This document shows positions 1,340-15,730 of a stretch of 57,396 bases of DNA, piece after piece. How positions within the stretch are numbered: the first letter of the stretch is position 1; each line of letters starts with the position of its first letter. Source of the stretch: Pseudomonadota bacterium (GTDB taxonomy: Bacteria; Pseudomonadota; Gammaproteobacteria; Burkholderiales; Sulfuricellaceae). Under the pieces are notes generated by a model, which worked only from the letters and a program-made list of their open reading frames with translations, searched no databases and had not been told where the DNA came from. Position numbers and translations under genes: made by a program. Location: NCBI GenBank assembly GCA_021801705.1, contig JAJYXP010000061.1:22677-80072 (forward strand), read 5' to 3'.

Positions 1340-1866
1340 GATTGGGTGCCGGGGGCAGCCCGGCGGCTGTACACCTTTCTTGCTTCGCCAAGAAAGGTGT
1401 ACCAAAGAAGGCGACCCCATTCCGCCGCCCTCCGCTACGCTGCGGGTTCCCTGCGTTGCTCGCCAAGCCGGGCGGCTGCGGAACTCGGCCCTTTGGGCCT
1501 CAGACAGTCCTTGCCGACTTCCCCCGGCTTGGCTGTGCTACTCGGCGGCAGAAAAGGGGGAGCCAACACCAAGCACCCCATCCCCACCCTGACCCTCCCC
1601 TTGAAAGGGGAGGGAATGTCGCCCTCTCTCCCCCCGGGAGAGAGTTGGAGAGAGAGGCGGAAGTGGAGAGGATTGACTCAACTATGCACACCACCCGGTT
1701 CCCCCTCTGCACCGCCTCGGTTTTCCGAAAAGATCGGGGGCCGTCGGCGAGGACTGTCTGAGCGCGTAGCGCGAGTTCCGCAGCCGCCCGATCTTTTCGG
1801 AAAACCGAGGGTAGCCCGTAGGGCCGGTGCGGCGGGGTGCCCTTTTGTTTGGTTACTTATATTTTG
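1340..1866. repeat. Long inverted-repeat region interrupted by the transposon
   Basis: This stretch has no credible gene. Two related blocks lie in opposite orientation. One runs from about 1347 to 1550. The other runs from about 1740 to 1858 and continues after the transposon at 13923-13970. Both contain the phrases gggcggctgcggaactcg and cagacagtcctYgccgac, and both end in tgccgggggcNgcccggcgg (1347-1367 and, as complement, 13945-13965). A small hairpin lies at 1370-1401 (12-bp arms, loop gcttcgcc). Smaller ccctcccc/ggggaggg palindromes sit at 1593-1613 and near 1624-1645. Removing the transposon rejoins a hairpin of the form ggttactt...aaagtaacc. Confidence 0.75.
1715..1810. repeat. Perfect 24-bp inverted repeat
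   Basis: The arms at 1715-1738 and 1787-1810 are exact reverse complements. They contain ggttttccgaaaagatcggg on the left and the complement on the right. The 48-base loop has a smaller gcgcgtagcgcg palindrome. No T-run follows, so it does not look like a simple terminator. It is part of the second block of the larger inverted-repeat region. Confidence 0.8.
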
Positions 1867-1891
1867 CGGTATTATGTAGCAACCGCACAAA
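1859..1891 (+). repeat. Transposon left end: 8-bp target duplication plus terminal inverted repeat
   Basis: atattttg (1859-1866) is the target duplication. The terminal repeat is 1867-1891, beginning cggtattatgtagcaaccg. Confidence 0.9.
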
Positions 1892-2148
1892 ACAATAATA
1901 AACAATAAGTTGCAATCAACTTTCAGTTAGAAGCAGCGTTTCTTGAAATAGAGGAGATATCGGCGTTTTACATAACAGTCGTTGGGCGAAGGGCACTCCG
2001 CCTTGCGGCTGCGCACGCTGCGGGTTTGTTGGACGGGAAGGCGGCAACTCGTGCATAATTTGCATGGGTTCGCGTGACCACCATCCGGGATCTAAGGACG
2101 GCTCGATACAACTGAGTTTTAATCTAGCGAAGAATTGCAGCCGATGCC

Positions 2149-2328
2149 ATGAAAAGCAAAACCGAAAAAACACTCAAAGACGAAATCTTAGAGGCCGCCA
2201 AGCGCGGAAGCCAGGAACGTTCACGCGCATTGGTGCGTAGCGGTGAGCGCACACAGGAATCCATGTTCCTGATTGCGCCATCTATCGTTACGACGCTTAA
2301 AATACGCCACAGAACGACCAACTTGTGA
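2149..2328 (+). CDS. Small hypothetical protein (59 aa)
   Basis: This is an open frame from ATG 2149 to TGA 2326-2328, too short for most gene callers. The product is charged and looks protein-like: it starts MKSKTEKTLKDEILEAAKRG, has a helical basic first half, and ends SIVTTLKIRHRTTNL. It lies just inside the left transposon end and points inward. The upstream sequence has only a weak AG-rich ribosome site (gaagaatt). I do not recognise the family. Its composition argues for a real gene, but there is no independent support. Confidence 0.4.
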   Translation: MKSKTEKTLKDEILEAAKRGSQERSRALVRSGERTQESMFLIAPSIVTTLKIRHRTTNL

Positions 2329-2385
2329 TTGAGAGCTTCACATGGCGGTCTTACCGATCGAATGCAGCCGATTCCAGGAAGAGAA

Positions 2386-2622
2386 TCATAGTTTTTCCGG
2401 GAGATTCGGCAAGTAGGTTTCGCCCCTCTCTTCCTCAATTTGCCCCAGGACAATGTGAGTGAGGATTTTGTGGTGCGGGTAACGGCCCATGAATCGCGGC
2501 ACCAGCGCCCCAAAAATCGCTCGCGCAAGCTCATCACGCCCAGCCAATTGAGAGACTAGCAACTCGCCAACAGCCGCGAGAACTTCTTGCTCGCAAGCTG
2601 AATAATCTTTCTGCTTGATCAT
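2386..2622 (-). CDS. Hypothetical protein (78 aa), last gene of the ATPase-exonuclease operon
   Basis: The product starts MIKQKDYSACEQEVLAAVGE and is rich in helix formers; I know no domain for it. I chose the ATG at 2622 rather than the GTG one codon upstream; an AAGGGGGTG ribosome site precedes both. It lies 13 bases after the stop of the 65-residue gene and completes a four-gene minus-strand run that begins with the AAA+ ATPase. A short soluble protein at the end of a defence-type operon could be a regulator or accessory subunit, but nothing in the sequence shows which. Confidence 0.6.
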   Translation of the reverse strand: MIKQKDYSACEQEVLAAVGELLVSQLAGRDELARAIFGALVPRFMGRYPHHKILTHIVLGQIEEERGETYLPNLPEKL

Positions 2623-2635
2623 CACACCCCCTTCG

Positions 2636-2833
2636 CTATTCTTGCTGGCCTAACCAACGCCGCCAATCGCAGATATAAGCGCATTGCTCGTCTGGCTCGT
2701 CGGGGTTGTACGGCCTGGTCTGGTGAAAAATCCATTCCCTGAATTCGTCCCGGTACGGTTGGGGAATATCGGCAAGGTGGATGAACCCGGTGGATTCACG
2801 GGGCCGTACTTGACTCAATAAGTCAGCGTTCAA
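2636..2833 (-). CDS. Hypothetical protein (65 aa), TTG start
   Basis: The start is TTG at 2833, placed seven bases after an excellent AGGAGAAG ribosome site. It overlaps the 3' end of the exonuclease gene by 11 bases, which indicates translational coupling. The product is acidic with several aromatics (EFREWIFHQTRPYNPDEPDE). I do not recognise a family. The tight overlap and strong ribosome site are the main evidence that it is expressed with the exonuclease. Confidence 0.65.
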   Translation of the reverse strand: MNADLLSQVRPRESTGFIHLADIPQPYRDEFREWIFHQTRPYNPDEPDEQCAYICDWRRWLGQQE

Positions 2834-3551
2834 GGTCTTCTCCTATCTTTTTCAGGTTTTCGAGAACGGAGTCATGGTCGTCGCTGATCTGCCTGGAGGC
2901 ATCCTCGATAATTCGCCACGATATTTCAGTGAGAACGCGGTGCATGTGCGCGACAAATTGTGGCGGCAATTCGCCGGACAGAAATATCTTTTCCAATTCG
3001 GCGCGTGTCGGTCCATCGCGGTAACTGACGTTGGCCGCTACCGTTACCGCATCCATCGGGGTCATTCGCTTCGGTTTTGAAGCATCCATCCAAGCAAGCC
3101 ATCCGGCGCGGTGGGCGCAGGCGTCATGCAGGGCGTGGTGCCAAGGGCGACTCGGCTGGTCGTGGAAGCGGCACACGGCGTTGTTGAAAACGCTCGTGTC
3201 GATCAGTGGGCGCAAGTCTTGGGGCTGGCTTACCACATTCGACGGCAATTCTCCGTCGAGGGCATCCAGCAGCAAGTCCCAATCTGTGCGGCTATCACAG
3301 GCAACCACCACCTTGCGCGGCAAGGTGGCGAACCAAGCACGAAGCTGCACGGCAAGCTCGGCACGAGTGGCCACATTGGAGCCATCGAGCAAGGGCAGGA
3401 TGCCCGTCTGCACTATCGGATTGCACCAGGAGCGTTCAAAGTCGCTACGCTCTGCGTAGAACGAATGCCGGCCTGTTTCGTCAACCATGCCAATACTGAT
3501 CAGATCGCACTGGATGAAATCGGTGAACTCGGCATCCAGGAAGATCAGCAT
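2823..3551 (-). CDS. DnaQ-like 3'-5' exonuclease (Rv2179c-like exoribonuclease type)
   Basis: The 242-residue protein carries the three exonuclease motifs of the DEDD superfamily. The first is FLDAEFTDF at residues 4-12 (motif I, D-x-E). The second is VACDSRTDWDLL near residue 85 (motif II). The third is HHALHDACAHRAGWL near residue 140 (motif III with His and Asp). The arrangement resembles the small Rv2179c-type nucleases, which trim RNA 3' ends; whether this one cuts RNA or DNA cannot be read from sequence. It starts three bases after the stop of the AAA+ ATPase gene and overlaps the next gene, so all four genes are almost certainly one transcript. The C-terminal ~90 residues are family-specific and may contact the ATPase. 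Confidence 0.8.
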   Translation of the reverse strand: MLIFLDAEFTDFIQCDLISIGMVDETGRHSFYAERSDFERSWCNPIVQTGILPLLDGSNVATRAELAVQLRAWFATLPRKVVVACDSRTDWDLLLDALDGELPSNVVSQPQDLRPLIDTSVFNNAVCRFHDQPSRPWHHALHDACAHRAGWLAWMDASKPKRMTPMDAVTVAANVSYRDGPTRAELEKIFLSGELPPQFVAHMHRVLTEISWRIIEDASRQISDDHDSVLENLKKIGEDLER

Positions 3552-3554
3552 GGT

Positions 3555-5123
3555 TTAGCAGCCGAAACCAATGGTGCGGCGGCCTTCTGTTTTTGGCAGA
3601 ACCAGCTTGGCAACTTTGTCACCGGACATCATCGCTTTGGTGAAAGCCTCTTTGACCAGTCGAGTGGTTTTTCTGAGGTCAATATCCACCCTCTCGGCCA
3701 GCATTTCACTGGTGCCTCTGTCCATCTTGATCGGCCTCTTCGTCTTGAGGCGCAACAGTTTCGCCTCGGCCCGGATAATACGCCTTCGCTGCTGCGGCTC
3801 TGGACGCGGCACGTTGAACACCTCAACGCGCGACAGCAAGGGCGTAGGCACGCCGTCTAGACTGTTGGCCGTCAGTATGAAAATGATACGGCTGGCGTCG
3901 AACTGCATTTCCAGAAATTCGTCTTTAAATCGCCTGGATGTGTTCGGCTCAAAGAGGTCCAGCAGCACCGGCAAAAACGGGATCTGCGAAGTTTGAATCT
4001 TATCCACTTCGTCAACTACAACCACCGGCGCGGCGGACTTACCTTCGGCCAACAGGGAGACAAGCGAGCCGGGGCGTGCGCTGTTCCAGCTAATATGCGA
4101 GCCGGTCAGCTGGAAGCCGCCTTGTGCGCCGCCAGCACTGACAATTTCCATATTCACGCCCAGCGATTCGGCCAGTTGCATTGCCAGGAAGGTTTTGCCG
4201 ATGCCCGGATCTCCCAGTAGCAAGATGGGGGTGATGCGGAAATCTTCAGGATTCATGGCGCCGGCCAGAACCAAATCAACCTGCAGGCGACTGATCGGCT
4301 CAACCAGGTTCTCGAAACGGCGCTTGGCATCGTCCAGTTTTAGTCCGGCCTTCCTGGTGTCAGGTATGGTGCGATAGCCAGCATTCATCTGTGCATTTTC
4401 CAAAATGCGCTCGCCGCCGGCTTTTTTCTCGTCCTTAACATCGCCCAGCATGGCCCACGCTTTAGCCACGGCGTCCGGTTTGAATACCTGAATTCCTGCG
4501 AGTGCCTTCGTCTTTTTATTTCGAGTTTTGACCGTAGACAAAGCTGTTTGCCATTGGATGTGGCATCGCCTCACGAGACTTTTGGCCCTTTCCTCCGAAA
4601 GACTTTCATTTTTAAGCACGAAATCATGACACCAAATTGCTGCATCAGTTTGTTTGAATGACTCGGAAAGATTGAAATACTGCAACATTTGTTTCGTGGA
4701 ATCCCAACAGGGGTCAATGATGTAATCGAGCATATCTTGGAACCTGCGCCGGTTGTCCGAGTAGGCAATATGCAGCGTGACGCCCACAAACAAGTCTTTT
4801 GAAAACGCGGCGGTGGCGTTGTCCAAATCAGTTTGATCTTTGAGAATCCTCGACGCCAAAGCCGTGGCGTCCGCCAAGTCGTGTTTTGTACCGGTGCGGA
4901 TGCAGGACAAGTCCCCCGAGTTAGCGGAATGAATGACGGGTGGCGGCGGCGGCGCTGGCTTGGATTCGGCAAGGGCACTGACAGGGGAATTGGCGTCCTC
5001 GCGGACAGCAGTAAGTGCGGCTGCGACGGTATGCGGCACCAAAAGAATCGCACGGCTTGACCTGGACGGCGATGATGGCGTGAAACCGCTAAAAAGGCTG
5101 GATGCGTTGTTTTTGTCTTCCAT
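3555..5123 (-). CDS. Lon-like AAA+ ATPase without a protease domain
   Basis: The 522-residue product has a variable N-terminal half and a AAA+ core. Walker A is GDPGIGKT near residue 303, Walker B is VVVVDEVDK near 368, and the sensor-1 segment FILTANS near 414 is followed by LLSRVEVFNVPRP, as in Lon-type ATPases. There is no Lon Ser-Lys protease domain: the protein ends about 100 residues after the AAA+ lid. I chose ATG 5123 because it is preceded by AGAAAGAAGA; the longer frame adds 29 atypical residues encoded by the AT-rich leader. It is the first gene of the operon with the exonuclease. A motor plus a nuclease suggests nucleic-acid remodelling and degradation, possibly in anti-phage defence. 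That role is inference. Confidence 0.8.
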   Translation of the reverse strand: MEDKNNASSLFSGFTPSSPSRSSRAILLVPHTVAAALTAVREDANSPVSALAESKPAPPPPPVIHSANSGDLSCIRTGTKHDLADATALASRILKDQTDLDNATAAFSKDLFVGVTLHIAYSDNRRRFQDMLDYIIDPCWDSTKQMLQYFNLSESFKQTDAAIWCHDFVLKNESLSEERAKSLVRRCHIQWQTALSTVKTRNKKTKALAGIQVFKPDAVAKAWAMLGDVKDEKKAGGERILENAQMNAGYRTIPDTRKAGLKLDDAKRRFENLVEPISRLQVDLVLAGAMNPEDFRITPILLLGDPGIGKTFLAMQLAESLGVNMEIVSAGGAQGGFQLTGSHISWNSARPGSLVSLLAEGKSAAPVVVVDEVDKIQTSQIPFLPVLLDLFEPNTSRRFKDEFLEMQFDASRIIFILTANSLDGVPTPLLSRVEVFNVPRPEPQQRRRIIRAEAKLLRLKTKRPIKMDRGTSEMLAERVDIDLRKTTRLVKEAFTKAMMSGDKVAKLVLPKTEGRRTIGFGC

Positions 5124-5144
5124 CTGTCTTCTTTCTAATGAGCA

Positions 5145-5165
5145 CACTGTTAATTCACTGTTAAT
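5145..5165 (-). promoter_or_regulatory. Tandem operator-like repeats ahead of the ATPase operon
   Basis: cactgttaat occurs twice, at 5145-5154 and 5156-5165, an 11-base period on one face of the helix and 22-42 bases upstream of the ATPase ATG. A TATACT hexamer lies just upstream on the minus strand (5200-5205). This fits a repressor or activator site covering the leader. The XRE protein encoded divergently at 5583 is the obvious candidate ligand. That link is inference. Confidence 0.4.
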
Positions 5166-5313
5166 ATATTGATTTAGCAGCAAAATTAGCCTTTTGGTCA
5201 GTATAAGCACATTTTTTCATGCAGTCATTGCCATAACGGTTTCCGCACACTAATTTTTTTGACCACGTGTCACGCCCCTACTAGCTCACAAAATGAGCCC
5301 GTCACGTATTTAT

Positions 5314-5488
5314 CTAGCCGTTCCAAAAAGGTGTTGATGATTTGACTGAAGGCCGTGCCCATATTGGGTTTTCGGCCTTTTTGTGGAAGAAAAAATCTCC
5401 CCTAATGGCAAGCCCGCCGAGAGCTAAGCTCCGAGCGGGTTTGCGTTGAACCAAGCGCCAAAAATACACACCTTTGCGGAACGGCTAG
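5314..5488. other. Structured intergenic region with long-range inverted repeat
   Basis: The region between the divergent ATPase operon and XRE gene has no open frame. Arms at 5314-5334 (ctagccgttccaaaaaggtg) and 5468-5488 are reverse complements over 21 bases with two mismatches. They enclose two smaller hairpins: a terminator-like stem at 5349-5379, and a stem around 5408-5443 built on aagcccgc/gcgggttt with an inner gagctaagctc. The nested layout is that of a folded RNA or a cruciform. Possible roles are a small RNA, a leader, or a protein-binding site of the transposon. Confidence 0.5.
5349..5382 (+). terminator. Rho-independent terminator-like hairpin
   Basis: aaggccg (5349-5355) pairs with cggcctt (5373-5379), with an inner ccca/tggg stem, followed by a run of five T on the plus strand. 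It may end a short transcript that starts inside the structured region. Confidence 0.5.
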
Positions 5489-5527
5489 CGTATTTATGTA
5501 ATATATAAACCAGAAATAATGCAGCAC

Positions 5528-5563
5528 ATGCATTGAATGTTGTATATAATGCATACTATGCAT
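5528..5563 (+). promoter_or_regulatory. XRE gene promoter with three ATGCAT boxes
   Basis: A TATAAT hexamer lies at 5545-5550, 33 bases upstream of the XRE start. ATGCAT, itself a palindrome, occurs at 5528-5533, 5549-5554 and 5558-5563, around and over the hexamer. This placement is typical of an autorepressor operator. Binding is inferred. Confidence 0.45.
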
Positions 5564-5582
5564 TTGCTCTGGAATCTGTAAC

Positions 5583-5918
5583 ATGGCAATAACAAGCATT
5601 CCTCAACTCATTAAGACCGCCAGGAACGGGCGTAGCCAAGCCGAATTCGCACGCGAACTGGGTGTGGAACAGTCCACACTAAGCCGATATGAAAAGGGTG
5701 AAGCAAACCCGAAGGCTCAGATTATTGAGAAATGTATGCATCTGGTGCATTGGAGTAACCAAGCGCCAGTGCCGTCAGTAGATGAACTTGCGGACAAAGT
5801 TCGGGAACGCCTCGGTCGAGAGGATCAAGCGCCTTTGCGTGTGGTGTTGTCGAAACTTATCGATGGGCTAGTTGCAGAAAAAACAGGGGCTCGCAATATG
5901 AGCCATCATTCAAGTTAG
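5583..5918 (+). CDS. XRE-family HTH transcriptional regulator
   Basis: The 111-residue protein has a helix-turn-helix of the Cro/C1 type at residues ~8-45 (KTARNGRSQAEFARELGVEQ, then STLSRYEKGEANPK). The C-terminal half is helical and probably dimerises. The start at 5583 directly follows a promoter with repeated ATGCAT boxes. It sits 12 bases ahead of the Gp37/Gp68 gene in the same direction, so it probably forms an operon with it. It is divergent from the ATPase operon and could control both. Confidence 0.8.
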   Translation: MAITSIPQLIKTARNGRSQAEFARELGVEQSTLSRYEKGEANPKAQIIEKCMHLVHWSNQAPVPSVDELADKVRERLGREDQAPLRVVLSKLIDGLVAEKTGARNMSHHSS

Positions 5919-5930
5919 GGAGAAGGCGAA

Positions 5931-6677
5931 ATGGCGACTCAATCAAGTATTGAATGGACTGAACAGACATGGAATCCCACGACGGGATGCACAAAAGTTT
6001 CCCCTGGCTGCAAATATTGCTACGCAGAGGTAATGGCGCACCGCCTTCACGCCATGGGGGCGCCAGGGTACGAGAACGGATTTAAGCTGGCGATTCTACC
6101 TGAACGCTTGGTTCAGCCACTCCAGCGGAAAAAACCGACCGTTTATTTCGTTAACTCCATGAGCGATCTATTTCACGAAGACATTCCAGATCAATTTCTG
6201 GATCAGGTGTTTTCTGTCATTCGCCAGACACCGCAACACACCTACCAAATCCTAACAAAGCGGGCTGAGCGCCTGCCCCGCTATTTTGCCGACCGGGGTT
6301 GTCCGCAAAACGTTTGGCTGGGGGTTTCTGTCGAGGATAAGGAATACGGCATTCCTCGCATCGACTATCTGCGACAAGTTGATGCACATATTCGCTTCCT
6401 CTCCGTAGAGCCCTTGCTGGAAGACCTTGGCGAAATAAACCTCACCGACATCCACTGGGTCATCGTCGGCGGAGAATCCGGACACCATGCACGTCCGATG
6501 CGCGAGGAATGGGTAGAAAACATCAAAATACAGGCTGACGTTGCTGGCACTGCATTTTTCTTCAAGCAGTGGGGTGGATGGGGGGTGGACGGTGTTAAGC
6601 GCCACAAAAAAGCAAATGGTCGTGAGTTCAGGGGGCGTACTTGGGACGCTTACCCTGCTATGCAGGCGGTCGGCTAA
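5931..6677 (+). CDS. Phage Gp37/Gp68-family protein (DUF5131), three-Cys motif
   Basis: The 248-residue product begins with the diagnostic stretch IEWTEQTWNPTTGCTKVSPG and has Cys20, Cys27 and Cys30 (C-x6-C-x2-C). This pattern suggests an Fe-S cluster of radical-SAM type. It continues with YFVNSMSDLFHEDIPDQF and IVGGESGHHARPMREEWV, hallmarks of the DUF5131 family found in phages and mobile elements. The biochemical role of the family is not known to me. Its gene is convergent with, and overlaps by four bases, the gene for TcmP, the partner that usually accompanies this family. That pairing supports both calls. An AGGGAGAAGG ribosome site precedes the ATG. Confidence 0.88.
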   Translation: MATQSSIEWTEQTWNPTTGCTKVSPGCKYCYAEVMAHRLHAMGAPGYENGFKLAILPERLVQPLQRKKPTVYFVNSMSDLFHEDIPDQFLDQVFSVIRQTPQHTYQILTKRAERLPRYFADRGCPQNVWLGVSVEDKEYGIPRIDYLRQVDAHIRFLSVEPLLEDLGEINLTDIHWVIVGGESGHHARPMREEWVENIKIQADVAGTAFFFKQWGGWGVDGVKRHKKANGREFRGRTWDAYPAMQAVG

Positions 6678-7534
6678 AACAAGAACGATCCTTGGCCTTC
6701 GGGATTAGCTGCTGTTGTCCAAAATTTGTGTGCCAGATCATGGCGGGCGGCAAGTAGCAACCAATATAAGGGCTGATTCTTCTCACCCGTAATCAATTTC
6801 TGATCGATTGAAGGCCATACCCCGAGACTTGCTACCTTTTCTCGCCAGAATTCGATAAAGCGCCGCCGAATTTCCTGCTGTGAGGCAGTCGTATTCACAT
6901 TTTCTCGCCATCCAGGAGCGATGACGTCAAATGCCGAGTCAGTAGCGGTCAGATTTATCGCCAAATTACGCTGTAAATCCATCGCGCTAAGATGGATCAG
7001 TAGATCAATTCGCTTGAGCGAAGAGAGTTTGTTGATTATTCGAAAATCTAGTGCCTCAAGGCTGTACGGGTCAACAAACGCGAAATGAAGTCCATAGCCG
7101 CTGACTGCTGACACCATTTTATCGACAGCATCAACTGCACTGGCATGGATTGGATGCACCGGCGCACCGAGCTTGCGCAATCGTTCGGCACAGACATTCA
7201 ATTTTTCTTCATCGAGATCCGAGATGTAGATATCTGTAAAAGGCGCATCGCCCTCTTTGCTGGTTTTCCAGGCGGCAACTGCGCCACCATCTATCCACTC
7301 ATTGCCACCTCTTATCCGGGATCGTCCAGTGCCGCAGAATAAGTCGAAATACACGGCACCACCTTTTCCATTCCCGATGTATTTTTTGCGCGTGGAGCGC
7401 GAAATATCCAGATAGCGCCGGAGATAGGTATGTTTTTCTTTTGCCCATATCCCTACTTCATCAGCCGGAAGTCCATCGTCGCCATCGATCAAACCCATTG
7501 CGCTACTCCTTGTTACATCAATCTTCGCTGCCAC
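6674..7534 (-). CDS. tcmP: Three-Cys-motif partner protein TcmP
   Basis: The 286-residue protein has the TcmP signature. The N-terminal EVGIWAKEKHTYLRRYLDIS is followed by VYFDLFCGTGRSRIR near residues 60-74, a methyltransferase-like glycine loop. HFAFVDPYSLEALDF follows near 150, where the D-P-Y resembles a catalytic loop of amino-methyltransferases. The family is defined by its neighbourhood with three-Cys proteins, as seen here. It probably adopts a Rossmann methyltransferase fold, but its activity is unproven. It is transcribed toward the Gp37/Gp68 gene with a four-base overlap of stop codons, so the pair is convergent rather than one operon. It lies 27 bases after the type IIG gene on the same strand, so it may be read from that promoter. 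Confidence 0.88.
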   Translation of the reverse strand: MAAKIDVTRSSAMGLIDGDDGLPADEVGIWAKEKHTYLRRYLDISRSTRKKYIGNGKGGAVYFDLFCGTGRSRIRGGNEWIDGGAVAAWKTSKEGDAPFTDIYISDLDEEKLNVCAERLRKLGAPVHPIHASAVDAVDKMVSAVSGYGLHFAFVDPYSLEALDFRIINKLSSLKRIDLLIHLSAMDLQRNLAINLTATDSAFDVIAPGWRENVNTTASQQEIRRRFIEFWREKVASLGVWPSIDQKLITGEKNQPLYWLLLAARHDLAHKFWTTAANPEGQGSFLF

Positions 7535-7561
7535 ATTAACCCATTTTATATTTAAAGAACT

Positions 7562-10500
7562 TTATTTCAGCAGCGTTAAATACTCTGGCCGTTTACTCTC
7601 CATCACCTTAAAGCTACTCAACAAATGCATAAACTCTACATCGGTAATGCCGTAAAGCTTGGCAACCAATTTATCATTTTGTGCACGCAGAGTATCTTGA
7701 GCCTTGGCGGTCTGCGGTACGTCGTCGGGTTGCACACCAAAAAGAGGGGCAAGTTCCGCAAAGTCGTCCCAATTGGCTAACAAACTCAGTAGCAGTGCGT
7801 TTTTGGCAAGCAAGGCATAATCGAGATTACTACGAATGTCGTCGTCACTGGGTTGTGGCATGGGCAGGCGGTAAAGATAAGTTTGATTGACGTTAATTTG
7901 GATCATCTGTCGCGCCATCCAATCCACCGGCAAGCTGTTGAAACAAGCCATTGCAAACAGCAAGCGCAACGGCGAAGTCGTTTTTGTTGTCACCCCGCCA
8001 TTTGTGTCACGGACATAATTTTTAGGGACGCTATTGTAGATAGAATTTCCTGCGCCACAGCCCTGTGGGAGCAAGGCAAAAATCAAAGTGCGTTCATTGG
8101 TGTCGCTGGCAACCGCGCGAAAGGCCAATCGCACAAACTCACGGTCATAGCGAATCGCAGACTTATGTTTGGCCGCCTCTGCTTTGGGAACGCCCAAATC
8201 TTGCGCCATGCGGTGAAGCTCTTTGCTTTTCAAGCGCGCATCAAATGCGGTCGCGTCTAGCCAGTATTGTGGGGCATCGTACGCATGGCTATATTGCCAA
8301 ATCATTTTGCCTTCAAATAGAGGCAGCAGACCCGGAGCCCCTTTCTCAATGAACAGATCTTTGTCATCAGTCATGTGCAACTCGCGCCGAAAATTCAGCC
8401 AGCTTTCAGATAAAGCGGGGAATGCCGCGTAGCATTTTTGCAAGATGGATAAATCCGAGCCATCGCGCAGCTCCATCAACGCCCAATATTGGGGCGACAA
8501 TGCTTTGAGCGTGGAGAGGGGATACGGCACGTGACGCGCTTCATTGGCTAACTCGGCGGCATCGAGCACATAGAAGGCGGTGTCAATGGTGTTTTCATGC
8601 GCGCTATCAGGTTCGCGGTTGACCACTTGCATGAGGGCAAATTTGTAGCGCGAATCCACGTCAGGGAAGATGCCATTGCGGTTTTCAAAGCTGTAGAAAA
8701 AATGCATCTGGAAACGAGTGAAAATATGCCGACGCAATATCGTCGAACCTTCTTCAAACAACAACGCGCTGGGCAACACATAATTAAGGCTGCCGCCAGG
8801 TGCGAGTAAGCTCAGATTGCGCTCGACGAACAAACGAAACAAATTGCCGTCACCCGCGCCTTTGTTGAGTGGAAATGCGGACGTATAGTAATCGTCGGCT
8901 ACTTCCATCTCATACTGTGCGGCTTTGTATGCGGTGGAGATGTGTTCACTTTCCAGCAATCTTTTTTGCACCGCCGCTTTTTCGGTGTTTTTCAGGCTGC
9001 GATAGTTGCTGTGGTATTGCGGAAAAAAGTCAGTGTCAGAAAACTTGGTTTTGTCCCAAGGCGGGTTGCCCACGATAATGTCAAAGCCTTTACTCTCCCG
9101 CGCAAAAGCTTCGGGAAAAGCGACTTCATAGTGAAAAAAGCGGTAACGCTGTGCATAGGTTTCCACCTGCTTGAGTGCGGTGCTCTTGCTTTTGTTCTCA
9201 TCAAATAAATGAGGAATGAGATCGGCGGTTTTGTCCAGCATTTGGCAGGCTTTGCTGTCGCCTTCTGCCAGCATGGCGCGACGGGTGCAGATAAAACTGA
9301 GTGCTCGTGACAGCAAATTGAGCTTGGGTGCAATGGTATTTTTCCAAAGCTCCTTGGACTGTTCCACCTCTGCTGCCGTGGTGTCGCGCATGGCATCCAG
9401 CTCTTGCATCACGCTACGCAATTCGTCAAAGCGCGCTCCAAGGTTGTCCACAAACAAGTCGTTTTGTGCAACTTCAACGGCATTGTAGTTGATGAAATCT
9501 TGTATAGTCGCGCCCATCAAGGCGTTGCCGTGACGGACATGGTGTTCGATGAACGACAGAGGTGTACCAAAGATAAAGCTATCCATCCACAACGATAAGC
9601 GCGCCAATTCTACCGCGAAGGGGTTTAAATCCACTCCGAAAATGCAGCGTTTCAGCAGGGCGCGCTTGAGTATTTGCGCGTCTTCCGGTTCGTAGTTGAG
9701 ATTGAGAAAATACAGTTGCTCGTTGATTTTGGCGCGTTCCTCCGCCACTAGTTGCTGCAAGTCGGCATCGTGTTCTAGCTGTGCAAGTGCTAAGTCAGTC
9801 AAGTAACCCAATGCCTCAACCAAAAAGTGTCCACTGCCACAAGCATTGTCGAGAATTTTGAGTTCGGTAAACTTTTTGCCGCTTGCGGTGGCGTGGTCAA
9901 TGGCGGACTTAACCAGCGGCTGCGACAAGGCGGGAGGCGTGTAATAACTGGCCGTGGTTTTGCGTGAATTACTAGCACTCTTGAGATATACATCACCTTT
10001 TTTTACCTGGGTTTCACGCCAGGCGCGATAGCCTTTTTCTTTACGGATGTTAGCCATATCGTAGCTGTCAAAGTAGGCTTCAACAGTTTTGCCTTTGGTG
10101 CTGCTGCTTTCGTATTCAAGATAGACAGCCGTTTCAGTAGCGCGCTCAAAATGAAATTCTAACAAGCCTTCATAGATGCGCCCTAAGTGGGTGACACTCA
10201 TGTTTTTGAAATCGCGGCGAGTGTCGAACAGCGTAGTGCCACGGCTGGTTTTATAGAGCAACTTTTCCAACAAGGTACGCAAGGTGGCGTTGTCAAATAT
10301 CTTGGGCGTGAGCAACAAGGGCGCACGTGCCGGATCAAACAAGCCGCCGTTGAACAATGGAATGTCAATGTCTTCTGCCCCCTCATCGAGCATTTCAAAT
10401 AGTTGCTTGAGGGCGTAAATGCCGTCGTGCAACGCACTGCGTTCGGCGGGTTGATTACGGAGGGCATCAAAAATGTTGTTCAGGCTATAGCGCCGGTAGA

Positions 10501-11473
10501 ACGGGTGCTTGGTTAGCAAGTCGTAGTTTTTGTCCTCAAAGTACACCACGAATAGCAAGCGAAACAGCAGCACAACACTGTTCTCATACACGTCGGGGAG
10601 GCTGGCTTTAGGGTTGGCTTTTTGAATGGCACGCCCCATGATTTCGAACAGCGAATCTTCGCCTGCGTAACCGTAGATCACGGCTTTAAGGTTTTCTTCG
10701 ACCTCTAGTGTAAAGTCGTTTGAAGCGGAGATTGCTTGTTCAATGGCACTGACTTGTCCGGTTTCTGTCGGTTGGACATAAGTGTCACGACCAAAGAAAA
10801 AGGCAAACAATGCAAAACCTTGTGCCTTTTCAATATCATCCTCCACCGCCAACAGGCGCTGTATATCAAACTCAATAAAGGTTTTCTTGGCAGTGATTTT
10901 GTCGGTGTCATACACTCGCCAGATGCGACCATTGGTTAAAAAACCAAATCGCACCCGCAAGGTGCTGAGATAGTCCTGAAGCTGATGATGCGGGTTGTCT
11001 TTGCGATCTGCTTTGCCGGTATCCAGGGTTTTACCCCATGCTTTCGATTCGCAAATAGCGGAGATGAAAGCATGATCCTTGCTGGTGATCAGTTTGTCTT
11101 CATCTTCTGGGTTCAACAGCAAGCAGTAGTCGGGTTTGGCAAATTTACCCTGTACGGTAATACCGACTTGATAGGCTTTTGCCCAGCCTAGTTGAGCTAA
11201 CAACGGGGCGATAAATTTTTCTTCCAGTTGCGCCTCGTTGCGGGCTGATAAGTTGGACGCATCGAAATGTTCGGTTAGCCATGAGTGTAGATCGTAAGGT
11301 AGTGGCTTGCCTGCCAGCTCGCTCTGCTTTTCGGCAATAAAGCCGTCATCAAGTAGCGTATTGATAAGCCAGTGTTGTGGAAATAAATCTTGAGTTCCGC
11401 AGGGCATCGACTGATCTTTAATTTCCAGTTTTGTGACGGTTGAGTTAGGGCCGGTTATATTTTTTTTGCTCAT
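7562..11473 (-). CDS. Type IIG-like restriction endonuclease-methyltransferase fusion (Eco57I-type)
   Basis: The product of about 1303 residues fuses nuclease and methylase. Near residues 112-142, KPDYCLLL followed by AFISAICESKAW gives the P-D...E-x-K arrangement of a restriction nuclease. ILDNACGSGHFLVEAL near 540 is SAM-binding motif I, and IIVGNPPWDKTKF near 800 is the adenine-methylase NPPW motif. The C-terminal third probably recognises DNA. I chose ATG 11473 because GGGGGAA, which contains the end of the upstream gene, sits six bases before it; a longer frame from 11521 would overlap that gene. No separate specificity or methylase gene is visible, as expected for type IIG. The reading frame is intact. 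Confidence 0.87.
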   Translation of the reverse strand: MSKKNITGPNSTVTKLEIKDQSMPCGTQDLFPQHWLINTLLDDGFIAEKQSELAGKPLPYDLHSWLTEHFDASNLSARNEAQLEEKFIAPLLAQLGWAKAYQVGITVQGKFAKPDYCLLLNPEDEDKLITSKDHAFISAICESKAWGKTLDTGKADRKDNPHHQLQDYLSTLRVRFGFLTNGRIWRVYDTDKITAKKTFIEFDIQRLLAVEDDIEKAQGFALFAFFFGRDTYVQPTETGQVSAIEQAISASNDFTLEVEENLKAVIYGYAGEDSLFEIMGRAIQKANPKASLPDVYENSVVLLFRLLFVVYFEDKNYDLLTKHPFYRRYSLNNIFDALRNQPAERSALHDGIYALKQLFEMLDEGAEDIDIPLFNGGLFDPARAPLLLTPKIFDNATLRTLLEKLLYKTSRGTTLFDTRRDFKNMSVTHLGRIYEGLLEFHFERATETAVYLEYESSSTKGKTVEAYFDSYDMANIRKEKGYRAWRETQVKKGDVYLKSASNSRKTTASYYTPPALSQPLVKSAIDHATASGKKFTELKILDNACGSGHFLVEALGYLTDLALAQLEHDADLQQLVAEERAKINEQLYFLNLNYEPEDAQILKRALLKRCIFGVDLNPFAVELARLSLWMDSFIFGTPLSFIEHHVRHGNALMGATIQDFINYNAVEVAQNDLFVDNLGARFDELRSVMQELDAMRDTTAAEVEQSKELWKNTIAPKLNLLSRALSFICTRRAMLAEGDSKACQMLDKTADLIPHLFDENKSKSTALKQVETYAQRYRFFHYEVAFPEAFARESKGFDIIVGNPPWDKTKFSDTDFFPQYHSNYRSLKNTEKAAVQKRLLESEHISTAYKAAQYEMEVADDYYTSAFPLNKGAGDGNLFRLFVERNLSLLAPGGSLNYVLPSALLFEEGSTILRRHIFTRFQMHFFYSFENRNGIFPDVDSRYKFALMQVVNREPDSAHENTIDTAFYVLDAAELANEARHVPYPLSTLKALSPQYWALMELRDGSDLSILQKCYAAFPALSESWLNFRRELHMTDDKDLFIEKGAPGLLPLFEGKMIWQYSHAYDAPQYWLDATAFDARLKSKELHRMAQDLGVPKAEAAKHKSAIRYDREFVRLAFRAVASDTNERTLIFALLPQGCGAGNSIYNSVPKNYVRDTNGGVTTKTTSPLRLLFAMACFNSLPVDWMARQMIQINVNQTYLYRLPMPQPSDDDIRSNLDYALLAKNALLLSLLANWDDFAELAPLFGVQPDDVPQTAKAQDTLRAQNDKLVAKLYGITDVEFMHLLSSFKVMESKRPEYLTLLK

Positions 11474-11475
11474 TA

Positions 11476-11697
11476 TTATTCCCCCAGCCTTATCGTCTGG
11501 CACCCAATCACTTCTAGGCATTGAATCATAAACACCGCCGAAAATTTCCCCCGGCTGATCTTGTTTGCAATGTTCTCTGGCGACTCAGATATACCGATAT
11601 CCGCAAGCTTTTCAGCTAACTGCAGATAGGTCACTTCCCGGCGCTTTAATTCCGCTTTGAGCAAACCCTTGACCTTGCTTTCCCAGTTCTGATTCAT
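11476..11697 (-). CDS. DUF6471 small protein, probable regulator of the restriction gene
   Basis: This is a 73-residue helical protein (NWESKVKGLLKAELKRREVT, then YLQLAEKLADIGISESPENI), an XRE-like fold known as DUF6471. The ATG at 11697 is preceded by a strong AAGGAGGA site; the longer frame from 11784 adds an unlikely leader. Its stop codon lies only two bases from the restriction-methylase start, so the two are translationally coupled. Small HTH proteins placed immediately before restriction genes often act as controllers that delay nuclease expression. That function is inferred here. Confidence 0.75.
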   Translation of the reverse strand: MNQNWESKVKGLLKAELKRREVTYLQLAEKLADIGISESPENIANKISRGKFSAVFMIQCLEVIGCQTIRLGE

Positions 11698-11738
11698 GGG
11701 TAATCCTCCTTCGATCCAGCTTTTAATTGCATTTCTTG

Positions 11739-11776
11739 AGACAGGCTCATTCCATGAGCCTGTCTGAGTTTCAGAC
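11739..11776. promoter_or_regulatory. Overlapping palindromes upstream of the DUF6471-restriction operon
   Basis: Perfect 11-bp arms agacaggctca (11739-11749) and tgagcctgtct (11755-11765) flank a five-base loop. A second palindrome, gtctga/tcagac, overlaps at 11762-11776. They sit 42-79 bases upstream of the DUF6471 start, where an operator would be expected. The AT-rich stretch beyond (11800-11920) must hold the divergent promoters, including TTGACA near 11868 for the transposase. Confidence 0.5.
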
Positions 11777-11926
11777 TCATACACGTTGGATATTTGGAAC
11801 TATAAAAAGCAATTATCACGTCATATACGACAATATAGATATCATCATACACGATATAAATATGTTGACAAGCGATGTGAATAGTATATCATTTGAGATA
11901 AGAACATATCGCAAACGGTGATAACC

Positions 11927-12949
11927 ATGTCCCAGCACTTCCTTCTCTCCGCCAAAGCCCGCACCCTCTCGGTGCGCAAAGTCATGGAATTGACCAATGA
12001 CCAAGCCTTTCAGGTCTTCAAGGAACTCCGCTGGGGTGAAGGCGAGGAAGTGGCTTGCCCGGTGTGCGGCACCATCGGCAAACACTACTTCCAGCAGACC
12101 CGCAAGCAATGGCGCTGCAAGGATTGCAATCACACTTTCTCAGTAACCAGTGGGACAATATTCGCTTTCCACAAGCTGCCGCTGCGCGTCTACTTGGCCG
12201 CGATTGCGATCTATACCAACGCCGTGAAAGGCATTTCAGCGCTGCAACTGGCCCGCGATCTCGGCGTTCAGTACAAAACCGCCTTCGTCCTGGCGCACAA
12301 GATCAGGGAGTCATTGATGGAACAACGGGACGATGAAGCGCTGTCCGGTGAGATTCACATGGACGGCGCTTATGTGAACGGCTATGTTCGCCCGAAGAAT
12401 CGCAAGGAAGATCGGATTGACCGCCGCTTGGCAGTGAACCAGCGTCCCGACAAGCGGTGCGTGTTCGTGATGCGTCAACGAGTGGAAACTGTAGGGGACG
12501 AAATCAAGGGTTCCAACAAGACGCTAACCTTCATCATCAAGGCCGAGAATCAGGCCGATGTAAGCCATCTGGCGGAGTCGTTTGTATCCAAGGGATCGGT
12601 GATCTGCGCCGACGAATCCAATGCCTACGACGTTCTGCATGCCAAGTTCGATACCCGCCGCGTCAATCACAGCCAGGAGTACCGAGCTGACGATGGCACG
12701 ACGAACAACTTGGCCGAATCGTATTTCAGCCGCTTTCGCCGGATGCAGTACGGTCAGACACATAAGTTCGGCAATCAGTACCTGGCGAATTATGCCAACG
12801 AAGCTGCTTATCGCGAGGACACACGCCGTTGGACCAATGGCGCGATCTTCACCGATATCACCAAGAAATGCGCCCACACCAAAACCAGCCGCGACTGGTG
12901 CGGGTACTGGCAGGGGAACAAGCGCCAGGAAGAAAGACTGGCCGCTTAA
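11927..12949 (+). CDS. IS1595-family (ISXO2-like) transposase
   Basis: The 340-residue protein starts with a zinc ribbon, CPVC near residue 44 and CKDC near 64, followed by TFSVTSGTIFAFHKLPLRVY, which is typical of the IS1595 family. The catalytic ISXO2 domain shows HMDGAYV (Asp146), CADESNAYD (Asp229) and NNLAESYFSRFRR (Asn261 to Glu264), the DDE/DDN-type triad. ATG 11927 is chosen over an upstream GTG at 11918; no strong ribosome site precedes either, as is common for transposases. The frame is intact, so the element may still move. It is the only transposase between the 25-bp ends. Confidence 0.92.
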   Translation: MSQHFLLSAKARTLSVRKVMELTNDQAFQVFKELRWGEGEEVACPVCGTIGKHYFQQTRKQWRCKDCNHTFSVTSGTIFAFHKLPLRVYLAAIAIYTNAVKGISALQLARDLGVQYKTAFVLAHKIRESLMEQRDDEALSGEIHMDGAYVNGYVRPKNRKEDRIDRRLAVNQRPDKRCVFVMRQRVETVGDEIKGSNKTLTFIIKAENQADVSHLAESFVSKGSVICADESNAYDVLHAKFDTRRVNHSQEYRADDGTTNNLAESYFSRFRRMQYGQTHKFGNQYLANYANEAAYREDTRRWTNGAIFTDITKKCAHTKTSRDWCGYWQGNKRQEERLAA

Positions 12950-13392
12950 AGCAGTCGCCAAAGGATCGGGCCGCCACCCGGCCCTTTGATCCGACCTGCA
13001 ATTTCCACCACACCCCGCTTCCGCATCATCTGAAGTGCCCCAAGCAAGGATTTGGTCAACCGATCACGTTCTTTCGTCCCCGCTATCGCAATGCCCTTAA
13101 GGGCAATTAGTGCATCCGTAATGTCGCAGGTAGAAAGAGGTGTGCTGGCCGTCCTCAAGGCTTCAAGGGTGAGCCGGGTTATCTCGCCCTTGAGAAACCA
13201 AGGATTCGTGCTTCTGATGCCCTTGGGTTTGATGCTCAATAGATCATAATCTGGGTTGAACAACAGCAGCGTTGCATCCAGGTGATCGACATCCATTGAA
13301 ATCTGTCGAATTTGGTACTGGAAATGCTCAATTTGACCGGTCAATTCAGCACGCTTGGCGACCAGACCTGAAACAACATGAGATTCTGACAT
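12946..13392 (-). CDS. Transposon passenger protein A (148 aa), paralogue of its neighbour
   Basis: The product (from ATG 13392) starts MSESHVVSGLVAKRAELTGQ and has a predicted coiled-coil first third. It then has FLKGEITRLTLEALR and a C-terminal segment with a winged-helix look (KSLLGALQMMRKRGVVEIAG). It aligns along its length with the next gene upstream, so the two arose by duplication. A GGAG site overlapping the stop of that gene precedes the start. The 3' end overlaps the transposase stop by four bases in convergent orientation. Function unknown; position next to the transposase and the right end suggests a role in transposition or its control. Confidence 0.7.
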   Translation of the reverse strand: MSESHVVSGLVAKRAELTGQIEHFQYQIRQISMDVDHLDATLLLFNPDYDLLSIKPKGIRSTNPWFLKGEITRLTLEALRTASTPLSTCDITDALIALKGIAIAGTKERDRLTKSLLGALQMMRKRGVVEIAGRIKGPGGGPILWRLL

Positions 13393-13399
13393 TTTAAGA

Positions 13400-13828
13400 T
13401 TACTCCGCAATCTTCCAACGGATGCTGACGCCATCCATGCCAACGCGCTCGACGATGCCCCGGCGCTCGGCAAAACGTAGTGAGTTGTTCACGCTATCCG
13501 TGATCGTCGCTTGCTGTTCGTGCGTCAATCCCTTCTTGTGCATGATGATCTCGGTAATAAGCGTGGTGCTCAACACGGCGTCTGCACGTCGCAGCGCATC
13601 CAGGCAGAGCCGGTAACATTCCCCCTTCTTGAAGATGCGGCTATAGCGGCGGTATTCCGTCGCCTTGATAGATCGGATACGATAGGTAGGATCGAAGATG
13701 CGGATCGCGGCGTCGATCTGGTACAAGCCTTGCCGAAGGCGTTCAATTTCCTTCTGGTGGTGCTCGATCATTCCGGCCATTTCAGAGCGCTTGCCGACTA
13801 GTCCGGATATCGCGTAGGTGTGTCCCAT
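13400..13828 (-). CDS. Transposon passenger protein B (142 aa), paralogue of its neighbour
   Basis: It starts MGHTYAISGLVGKRSEMAGM from ATG 13828, after an AGGGGGAT site. It shares with passenger A the pattern SGLVxKRxE, IEHxQ, the F(D/N)PxY block, SIK, KGE and LDALRxA, then LST and a KGL segment. It ends with a likely winged helix (NSLRFAERRGIVERVG). The gene starts 62 bases from the right transposon end and reads inward, so its promoter must lie at the terminus. The function is not recognised; the conserved pattern of the pair may be used to find homologues. Confidence 0.7.
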   Translation of the reverse strand: MGHTYAISGLVGKRSEMAGMIEHHQKEIERLRQGLYQIDAAIRIFDPTYRIRSIKATEYRRYSRIFKKGECYRLCLDALRRADAVLSTTLITEIIMHKKGLTHEQQATITDSVNNSLRFAERRGIVERVGMDGVSIRWKIAE

Positions 13829-13889
13829 ATATCCCCCTGTGCAATGATTCTTAGTACAGGGAAATTCTACGGGGATGGGGCAGAATATC

Positions 13890-13922
13890 TTTGTGCGGTT
13901 GCTACATAATATCGATATTTTG
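13890..13922 (-). repeat. Transposon right end: terminal inverted repeat plus target duplication
   Basis: The terminal repeat is 13890-13914 (complement of the left end, 24/25 identical). atattttg at 13915-13922 repeats the left target octamer. The flank 13923-13970 is the missing half of the interrupted chromosomal repeat. Confidence 0.9.
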
Positions 13923-14034
13923 GGCAAGCAAAATAAAGTAACCTGCCGCCGGGCAGCCCCCGGCATCTAATCAACTGCGCGAAGCGCACACGATCATCCT
14001 GCGCGATGGGATTTGGGGTGCGCCTCCTATATTT

Positions 14035-14685
14035 TTATTTTTCATCTTGAGAAATCCATGGTACGCGGAAGATTGCCTTCCAGTCGTATTGTCGAGTCGG
14101 TAGCAGGCTACCCATGTTTGATGCGCGAAAGAGCATGAAGTACCGCACATAGAGTTCGTCAAGAAGGTTTATGCATGCATCGACTTCGTTGAAAGTGGGT
14201 AGCTCCTTCGGTTCTTTCTTATCACGATGAGCGACTCGTTTGTCAGCGAAGTCCTCGCAGCGCTTTGTGGCATTACGAAGTCGAGTGAGATCAGCGGCCA
14301 CAAGAGTTGGATCAATGTGTGGCGCCTCTGGCGCAGCAAATTTGTTGAAGTCCTTGTCAGCAAAATTTTCGACAACAGAGCCTTTGTACAAACCAACGTA
14401 GTAACTACGTGTCAAAACTTGAGGCGACTCAATTAGTTCCTCAAACATCCGAGCCATGGAAATGCTCTGGTTGCCACACTTAATTTGCCGACGTAGCCCA
14501 ATGACAACGTGAGAGACATAGGTTCGTGACAAGTAGTCGTAGAATGAATTCGGCTGATGTAGGGCCGGGTTATCTCTGATGAGCTGCTGAACCTCATGGA
14601 ATGTGCGTTTCGCCATTACGAGGTCTTGCACTTCGTCTTTGATGACTTCCAGCCAACGCAACCACTTCTTGAGCTTTGTATCCAT
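14035..14685 (-). CDS. Hypothetical protein (216 aa) with HEPN-like R-x-x-x-H motif
   Basis: I do not recognise this protein with certainty. It is alpha-helical and soluble, without membrane segments or signal peptide. A segment near residue 160, FADKRVAHRDKKEPKELP, resembles the catalytic R-x(n)-H patch of HEPN and AbiU2-type proteins, which are RNA-cleaving or abortive-infection proteins. That resemblance rests on a short motif only. I chose ATG 14685; a GTG at 14712 is possible, and neither has a clear ribosome site. It lies just outside the transposon's right boundary, is moderate in GC, and has no operon partner, so it is probably accessory. Confidence 0.6.
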   Translation of the reverse strand: MDTKLKKWLRWLEVIKDEVQDLVMAKRTFHEVQQLIRDNPALHQPNSFYDYLSRTYVSHVVIGLRRQIKCGNQSISMARMFEELIESPQVLTRSYYVGLYKGSVVENFADKDFNKFAAPEAPHIDPTLVAADLTRLRNATKRCEDFADKRVAHRDKKEPKELPTFNEVDACINLLDELYVRYFMLFRASNMGSLLPTRQYDWKAIFRVPWISQDEK

Positions 14686-14950
14686 GGCTATGAGATCTAA
14701 CGTGGTGTGCACAGTAAACGGTTTGCAACCTGTAATCGTGATGATGAATTATGATCTAACGATTCAACCAGCTGGATGCTGCGAAATGAGTTGTACACCA
14801 TCGAGTAATCCCTCCCCGTCCGGTCGGGTCGCCGAAGCTGTTCGACCGGGTTCGTGATTGCCGCTGCAGCCGTAAGTTCATGGATTAAACGGCGCAATTT
14901 GTTGCGCTGCAAGGACTATTTGCCGAATTTTATGGATGCGGCTGACAAGC

Positions 14951-15730
14951 TCAGAACGACCAGTCGTAATCCACCGTCAGCGGCGCATGGTCGCTGAAGC
15001 GCTGCTCCTTGTAGACCACAGCACCTTTCGCCGCCGCGGCGATGCCCGGCGTGGCGATCTGGTAGTCGATGCGCCAGCCGACGTTCTTGGCCCAGGCCTG
15101 GCCGCGGTTGGACCACCAGGTGTAGGCTTCGCCGGTGGCCTCCGGGTGCAACTGGCGGTAGACGTCCACCCAGCCGATTTCGTCGAATACCTTGGTCAGC
15201 CAGGTGCGCTCTTCGGGCAGGAAGCCGGAATTTTTTTGGTTGGATTTCCAGTTTTTCAGGTCGATTTCCTTGTGGGCGATATTCCAGTCGCCGCACAGCA
15301 CGACTTCCCGCCCGCCGGCCCGCAATGCTTCGAGGTGGGGGGCGAAATAGTCCATGAAGCGGAACTTCGCCGCCTGCCGCTCTTCGCCGCTGGAGCCGGA
15401 AGGCAGGTAGAGCGAGATGACGCTGAGATTGCCGAAATCGGCCTGCAGGTAGCGGCCTTCGGCGTCGATTTCGCTTATGCCCAGTCCTTCAACCAGGTTG
15501 TCGGGTTCGCGCCGGGCGTAAATGCCTACGCCGCTGTAGCCCTTCTTCTCGGCGGGGTGGAAATAGCCGTGCAAGCCTGCCGGTGACTGCATTTCGGGTG
15601 TCAGATCGGGGATCTGCGCCTTCAGTTCCTGCAGGCAGACGATGTCGGCCTGCTGCTGGGGCAGCCATTCGAGCAGCCCCTTGGTGGTGGCGGAGCGGAT
15701 GCCGTTTAAATTCAGGGTTATAATACGCAA
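14951..15730 (-). CDS. xth: Exodeoxyribonuclease III family AP endonuclease (first of two)
   Basis: The 259-residue enzyme cuts DNA at abasic sites and degrades 3' ends. The signatures are [10 protein letters not shown] at the start, CLQELKAQ (metal-binding Glu), [20 protein letters not shown], and [10 protein letters not shown] with the catalytic Asp-His at the C-terminus. The start is TTG at 15730 with GGAG seven bases upstream. It is divergent from pyrE across only 29 bases, so promoters must overlap the coding sequences. A second family member lies at 43310; this copy belongs to the class with the longer [19 protein letters not shown] segment. Confidence 0.92.

Follow-up and report, generated by a model that had tools for sequence, protein, structure and literature searches.

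We examined a stretch of 57,396 nucleotides from a Sulfuricellaceae bacterium (assembly GCA_021801705.1, contig JAJYXP010000061.1, positions 22,677 to 80,072), referred to here as the window, and recognised in it, from its sequence, a complete unit transposon of the IS1595 family of insertion sequences (IS). Its terminal repeats and 8-bp target duplication fit that family. Comparison with related loci makes it very probable that the element is an IS1595 unit transposon with a core of transposase and accessory gene and an exchangeable, defence-rich cargo. An earlier note on this DNA had described a complete passenger transposon with exact boundaries. This is borne out by the ends and the duplication, by a single-copy target in two repeats of the same genome, by the empty corresponding place in a related genome (G009) and by 24 relatives built alike.

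Boundaries and transposase of the element

The complete unit occupies positions 1867-13914 of the window (12,048 bp). Its left terminal inverted repeat (IRL, 1867-1891, forward strand) and right terminal inverted repeat (IRR, 13890-13914, reverse strand) are 25 nt long and match at 24 of 25 positions (96% complementary), and an exact 8-bp duplication, atattttg, flanks them at 1859-1866 and 13915-13922 (both read on the forward strand). The end match and the flanking octamers reported earlier were thus reproduced. The end pattern CGRTATTATGTAGCAACCGCACAAA, allowing up to 3 mismatches, matched exactly twice in the window and not at all in 100 shuffles. Since only the two known ends matched the pattern in the window even when up to 7 mismatches were allowed, no left end that would define a shorter IS lies immediately upstream of the transposase. 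Such an end upstream of position 11927 had been named as one of the observations that would speak against a 12-kb unit. A composite transposon was ruled out as well, the whole genome containing one such transposase and the window two ends only.

The transposase gene lies at 11918-12949 on the forward strand, with its start likely at 11927. The protein contains the DDE transposase domain PF12762 (E = 3.1e-45) and the zinc ribbon PF12760 (E = 1.7e-14), and it scored 143.8 bits against the IS1595-family model NF033547, for which the cut-off is 75. Residues D149, D232, N264 and E267 are invariant in all 42 full-length relatives, with N264 or E267 as the third catalytic residue, and so are the cysteines at positions 47, 50, 67 and 70. 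The claim of a single intact transposase with its catalytic residues therefore holds. No second copy of this transposase was found at E ≤ 1e-3 in the genome of 2.84 Mb.

The insertion site and its empty counterparts

The element sits in a dispersed repeat, the core of which is a hairpin with a 6-nt loop. Copies of the repeat elsewhere in the same genome delimit the target: its left arm, GGTTACTT followed by the duplicated 8 bp, lies at 1851-1866, and the loop GGCAAG with the right arm lies at 13923-13943, both on the forward strand. Two unoccupied copies, L066 and L067, read GGTTACTT-ATATTTTG-GGCAAG-CAAAATAAAGTAACC, which equals the flanks in the window with a single atattttg; written as GGTTACTT-ATATTTTG-GGCAAGCAAAATAAAGTAACC, the target likewise holds one atattttg. 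Other copies in the genome differ by about one base. The right part of the repeat, searched as a pattern with up to 3 mismatches, occurs in 7 copies in the 2.84-Mb genome, the one in the window included. The hairpin belongs to a composite repeat of about 0.5 kb that is bounded on both sides by hairpins (L066, L067 and, in the window, 1400-1866 plus 13923-14000); most genomes of the genus also contain the hairpin portion.

The genes flanking the site, identified by eye, encode an AmpG-like transporter (55-1308) and exodeoxyribonuclease III (14951-15730), and both are present in 12 of 12 genomes of the genus. In G009, the genome with the most similar left gene (98%), the joined flanks align over 235 bp at 89% identity with no insert, and the hairpin sequence there is unlike that in the window. 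The two genes lie between 14 bp and 2.0 kb apart in seven further relatives (G001, G002, G005, G006, G007, G008 and G010), which leaves no room for a 12-kb element. In G003 they are 6.9 kb apart, with 451 bp of the gap read, and in G004, G009 and G011 they are on different contigs. The earlier note had proposed looking in a relative for an empty site with a single atattttg. The single octamer was found in the copies L066 and L067 of the same genome, and the corresponding place in the relative G009 is empty, with a different hairpin. A 225-aa open reading frame (ORF; 14035-14712) just right of the element, before the gene resembling exodeoxyribonuclease III, had no NCBIfam match.

A lineage of similarly built elements

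A sample of one genome per species, covering 84,980 species, yielded 53 loci with related transposases. Both ends and the 8-bp duplication were found in 22 of these and in the window; the duplication is exact in 22 of these 23 elements and matches at 7 of 8 positions in L051. Two more elements, the left ends of which lay outside the DNA first retrieved, were completed from their contigs, both with exact duplications: L003, with a length of 12,666 bp and ends that agree at all 25 positions, and L022, with a length of 13,871 bp. The resulting 25 complete elements range from 3.0 to 13.9 kb, that in the window being the third longest, and they count as 25 with L034 and L035 being one element counted twice and with L051 containing a truncated transposase frame only. 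Of the 29 loci outside this set, 22 have at least one end missing from the retrieved DNA and 7 lack a matching duplication.

The 25 elements share the order IRL, cargo, transposase, small convergent gene, IRR, and in 24 of them the cargo lies mainly to the left of the transposase. In L006 the transposase and the accessory gene are separated by 1.6 kb, more DNA than precedes the transposase on its left side; the same interval holds 0.4 kb in L039 and 0.2 kb in L003. The search for related transposases and ends, with comparison of cargo, which the earlier note had suggested, thus returned 24 relatives of the same general build. Elements of this lineage are often large and a 12-kb unit is therefore not exceptional, so the size stressed in that note was confirmed but its rarity was not, relatives of 12.7 and 13.9 kb being present.

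An accessory gene near the right end

Two ORFs lie between the transposase and the right end. They are not cargo: each is a copy of one conserved gene of the lineage, of a coiled-coil/winged-helix type. Accessory gene A (12946-13392, reverse strand) is convergent with the transposase and encodes a long helix and a winged helix, as indicated by a family alignment of 44 rows and a predicted model of this copy (predicted local distance difference test score, pLDDT, 89.7). Its paralogue, accessory gene B (13400-13828, reverse strand), starts 86 bp from the right tip. The family is present as an open frame in 52 of the 54 loci, a count that takes in the weak matches L043 and L046 and the split frame in L052, and in a 53rd by tblastn.

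The gene is also constant in position. In all of the 27 elements measured (27 of 27), the distance between its start codon and the right tip is 79-96 bp. These comprise the 25 complete elements, whose ends were located independently of it, and two cargo-less elements of 1,691 and 1,596 bp from plasmid records, in which the search for ends was confined to DNA selected around the transposase and accessory gene pair. Both cargo-less elements carry the gene, which is labelled merely hypothetical in the two records. In a sample from across the phylum the right end was sought only 30-220 bp from the accessory start, and the position there is given by construction. These observations suggest that the accessory gene is likely a core part of the machinery alongside the transposase. 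Given this fixed spacing of 79-96 bp between gene start and right tip, we infer that the protein may bind DNA at or near the ends and regulate or assist transposition. The view of a minimal transposase as the engine was accordingly upheld for the transposase itself, but not for the idea that it acts alone. One 10,960-bp relative (L124, 6116-17075) has an accessory-like gene at each end, both pointing inward.

Movement of the unit and exchange of cargo

Elements L034 and L035, from two Acinetobacter species, are 6.5 kb long and more than 99.9% identical apart from a 65-bp length difference. Their homology stops within 3 bp of the element borders, and their duplications differ (GAAAAAAG and TAATTTTC). 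Near-identical elements at different sites indicate that the element moves whole. The length difference falls in a type III methyltransferase gene: L034 has 16 TGTGC units (9259-9338) and a frame split into two ORFs, and L035 is 65 bp shorter at this run, its frame being uninterrupted. The difference probably reflects phase variation of a type III system carried by the transposon.

Other pairs share the core and little else. L012 and L015 have in common 1,567 bp of core at 87% identity and the 25 bp of the IRL, with nothing else at E ≤ 1e-3. The window element and L003 share the core, a DUF6471 gene and 48 bp at the left end, their remaining cargo being unrelated. A large cargo protein of the window element, described below, is 67% identical to a cargo protein of L030, and the L030 transposase is more distant. 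From these three comparisons, cargo replacement is read as taking the block that runs from the bare left end to the transposase region.

Cargo of the window element

Seven credible passenger genes lie between the IRL and the transposase. About a dozen had been counted before; two of the additional ORFs are the accessory copies, and two others (1916-2173 and 2124-2537) have no support as genes. The largest passenger (7562-11521, reverse strand, start probably at 11473) encodes a putative type IIG restriction enzyme-methyltransferase of 1,319 aa. Enzymes of this type join a nuclease and an N6-adenine methyltransferase in a single chain. The protein matched the PADLOC model PDLC03613 with 1086 bits over residues 78-1319, contains methyltransferase domains including PF07669 (E = 2e-22), and shows at its N-terminus a weak, sub-threshold match to the nuclease-like HSDR_N model (24.5 bits, cut-off 25.1). 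This is the protein related to that of L030.

Two adjacent genes encode a DUF5131 protein, a candidate defence partner (5931-6677, forward strand; PF07505, E = 4.7e-108), and the three-Cys-motif partner protein TcmP (6674-7534, reverse strand; TIGR04474, 170.7 bits, cut-off 53). The former matched the PADLOC models PDC-M30B (E = 8.9e-114) and PDC-M41B (E = 4.2e-112) and the latter PDC-M41A weakly (E = 3.6e-8), so that the pair corresponds to the PADLOC candidate systems PDC-M41/M30, weakly so for TcmP.

The leftmost passenger is a relative of DEDDh-like 3'-5' exonucleases of 242 aa (2823-3551, reverse strand), which matched an RNase AS model at E = 1.4e-6, far below the cut-off. Its residues D6, E8, D90, H138 and D143, which we take to form the DEDDh motif, are invariant in 5 of 5 sequences. 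Next to it are an AAA ATPase with a Lon-like ATPase region (3555-5210, reverse strand; PF00004, E = 2e-14), which matched the lon model below its cut-off over residues 329-479 only (E = 4.4e-29), and a helix-turn-helix regulator (5583-5918, forward strand; PF01381, E = 7.3e-11). The seventh passenger, a DUF6471 regulator (11476-11784, reverse strand; PF20075, E = 1.1e-31), is divergent from the transposase.

Profile matches support a defence-related cargo in the window, and this set, with the putative type IIG enzyme, DUF5131 protein, TcmP and the other genes between the ends, is judged by its sequence to consist of passengers of the transporter IS (tIS) type. The statement that most passengers are of a defence type was sustained for the restriction enzyme and the DUF5131/TcmP pair; the other passengers are not among the defence-like genes.

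Some of these genes recur. DUF5131 homologues are found in five elements (the window element, L005, L008, L012 and L023), with a TcmP-like neighbour by eye, and the exonuclease relative in four (the window element, L012 with two homologues, L013 and L023). The recurring DUF5131/TcmP/exonuclease group is a candidate for an uncharacterised defence set. Relatives of the DUF6471 gene lie at the same place in L003 and L023 (blastp) and, by eye, in L120 and L124. L005, L007 and L008 have S24/LexA-like repressors beside the transposase instead (profile match for L005 only), and these might place it under damage-induced control.

Defence genes across the lineage

We scanned 57 hand-picked cargo ORFs with the PADLOC models at E ≤ 1e-10. 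A match was obtained for 30 of them and none for 27; 20 of the 25 elements contain at least one match, and 15 of the 25 a restriction or methyltransferase match. L018 carries the Ssp genes SspC, SspE and SspD. Further matches were to JetD (L003), which we take to be Wadjet-type, MkoC (L022), presumably Mokosh-type, PD-Lambda-2 (L039) and RmrA (L042), and a more distant relative, L131, has an RmrA-like pair by eye. Defence, on these sequence matches, is the usual but not the only cargo of the lineage. By eye, L033 (7085-9614) and L006 (8693-9628) have membrane-protein genes in common; L033 has PAAR and amidase genes in addition, and this cargo looks like a type VI effector with immunity.

Target sites

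Hairpin repeats of the kind found in the window host 6 of the 25 elements (the window element, L003, L008, L009, L022 and L030), repeat identity being judged by the hairpin core; the strict pattern has 2 copies in the genome of L009 and L022, while the genomes of L008 and L030, with repeats of different sequence, contain no copy. The duplication consists of the loop and its closing pair in L008, L009 and L022, and of the 8 bp adjoining the loop in the window, L003 and L030. Taken together, the 25 duplications are loosely AT-rich (65% A+T). A palindrome test of 23 sites gave no general hairpin rule: only at L008 and L030 were no more than 2% of random controls as good, the figure being 4.5% at L009 and 7% at the window's own site, which is not singled out.

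Insertion into extragenic palindromes is described for IS1397, ISPsy8 and IS621 in passages of PMC1525189, and ISPpu9 is a further IS targeting repetitive extragenic palindromic (REP) sequences, according to part of PMC8450116. The 2006 survey, in the sections concerned (PMC1525189), names five families, IS3, IS110, IS4, IS256 and IS5, and IS1595 is not mentioned there. The elements here resemble REP-targeting IS in inserting into dispersed extragenic palindromes. They were nevertheless not assigned to that type, the insertions of which are mainly in such palindromes, as 6 of 25 are in the repeat and 19 of 25 elsewhere.

Alternative explanations

Several observations weigh against the reading of a mobile, defence-carrying lineage with a two-part core. 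The window element is a single copy in its genome, and the case for its mobility rests on sequence comparison. In seven loci (L019, L021, L026, L038, L048, L049 and L052) the transposase is flanked left and right by sequences resembling the ends, with no matching duplication. No PADLOC match was obtained among the hand-picked ORFs of L006, L014, L033, L041 and L051, and the cargo is different in distant relatives belonging to other classes of the phylum, such as an apparent Czc-type metal efflux set, by eye, in L124. A control scan covered 129 of 206 mechanically picked flank ORFs of at least 150 aa from 23 elements, some of which may be no genes, and was counted by family; it hit 33 PADLOC families, mad2 by two ORFs and the other 24 listed by one each. 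In the distant relatives L126, L128 and L133 the transposase is on the same strand as the accessory gene, so that convergence is not constant, and the accessory protein may be a repressor only.

It is extremely improbable that the unit is what is left of a genomic island or mobilizable element, with the IS1595 gene there by chance. Some elements with IS1595-type transposases are mobilizable, MTnSag1 and tISCpe8 being examples in passages of PMC5704250, but no integrase or relaxase was found among 10 window ORFs scanned with Pfam (an oriT was not searched for), the window has no tRNA, and the exact pairing of ends with the duplication and the 24 relatives built alike already contradict such an origin. 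The accessory gene could instead stand outside the transposition machinery, as a passenger transcription regulator, like the regulator described in ISNha5, kept for control of cargo or transposase expression. We regard this as unlikely, as a regulator of cargo would be expected to vary with it, whereas the gene is present in two elements without any cargo and constantly placed in 27 of 27 elements with very different cargo.

The excess of defence genes could mirror where such genes occur in these bacteria, with no special link to the transposon. In favour of this, the flank ORFs include restriction, methyltransferase, MkoB, LmuB and MADS matches, and the relatives from other classes differ in cargo by eye. 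PADLOC also matches flank genes and the control gives counts by family, so the defence excess is no more than likely. We nonetheless consider that explanation quite unlikely, because the elements matched at E ≤ 1e-10 (20 of 25, with restriction or methyltransferase matches in 15) hold few genes each. More room is left for the proposal that hairpin repeats merely tolerate insertion, probably as sites free of genes, and that no real hairpin preference exists, which we find doubtful but worth serious consideration. The 19 elements located elsewhere, the loose duplication consensus and the palindrome test, with 2 of 23 sites at or below 2% of controls, agree with it. Against it, six elements are in the same kind of hairpin, with the duplication each time flush with or on the 6-nt loop, and the strict form of the repeat is rare, at 7 copies in the 2.84-Mb genome.

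Relation to known elements and proposed mechanism

The ISNha5 group, or tIS, of the IS1595 family was reportedly described by Siguier, Gagnevin and Chandler in 2009. The ends of ISNha5 begin with CGG, as do the ends here, and ISNha5-type elements measure about 3.5-7.9 kb. The elements described here are longer than that and have defence genes as their usual cargo, and their winged-helix gene is constant, kept even without cargo. Tn7-like and other cargo transposons with defence islands have fixed transposition genes at one end and exchangeable cargo; here, a single DDE transposase and a small accessory protein take the place of a multi-protein machinery.

IS1595 elements with passenger genes are known as tIS (passages in PMC11891212), and the features of the family and its seven groups are listed in part of PMC8101967. 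As excerpts of both papers describe them, the ISNha5 group or tIS share with the elements here an IS1595 transposase, 8-bp duplications and passengers that include a regulator. IS1595-type transposases also move MTnSag1 and tISCpe8, which have 25-bp ends, and a circular form is reported for MTnSag1 (part of PMC5704250). The 25-bp terminal inverted repeats and the direct repeats from target duplication are as in the present elements; the same passages describe differences, namely other hosts, transfer by mobilization and, in tISCpe8, a lincomycin-resistance cargo. The literature searched, with the founding tIS description outside it, yielded no defence-carrying IS1595 lineage and no accessory as a constant part. 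We conclude that the element is real and complete and of a known kind, IS1595 with passengers, and that it represents a variant that is larger, rich in defence genes and equipped with an accessory protein that is likely part of the core.

The core at the right, a DDE transposase and one or two winged-helix accessory genes transcribed toward each other, extends up to the IRR, and the cargo occupies the DNA from the bare IRL to the transposase. We propose that the transposase joins the two 25-bp ends and inserts the unit as a whole, generating the 8-bp duplication; the route is probably copy-out/paste-in via a circle, as reported for a relative. The window element landed at the tip of a dispersed hairpin repeat. 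Its cargo may shield the host from phages and so pay for the upkeep of the element. More tentatively, at somewhat less than an even chance, a Pseudomonadota-wide two-gene IS1595 lineage may serve as an exchange platform for immune systems, in which the core stays and the left block is replaced as one piece, with a dedicated coiled-coil/winged-helix partner at the right tip that enables the small transposase to cope with long cargo or guides it to the tips of hairpins.

The spread of bacterial defence systems has mostly been attributed to phages, plasmids and large islands. In the present case, restriction systems and genes of Ssp-, Wadjet- and Mokosh-like kinds travel with a lineage of simple transposons whose ends are exact. 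Its constant accessory gene raises the question of what a DDE transposase of the IS1595 family needs for moving 12 kb. The exact cargo boundary expected from the precise ends was confirmed by the ends and the duplication. Because the ends are exact, the limits of the cargo are known to the base, and they could be used for finding new immune genes.

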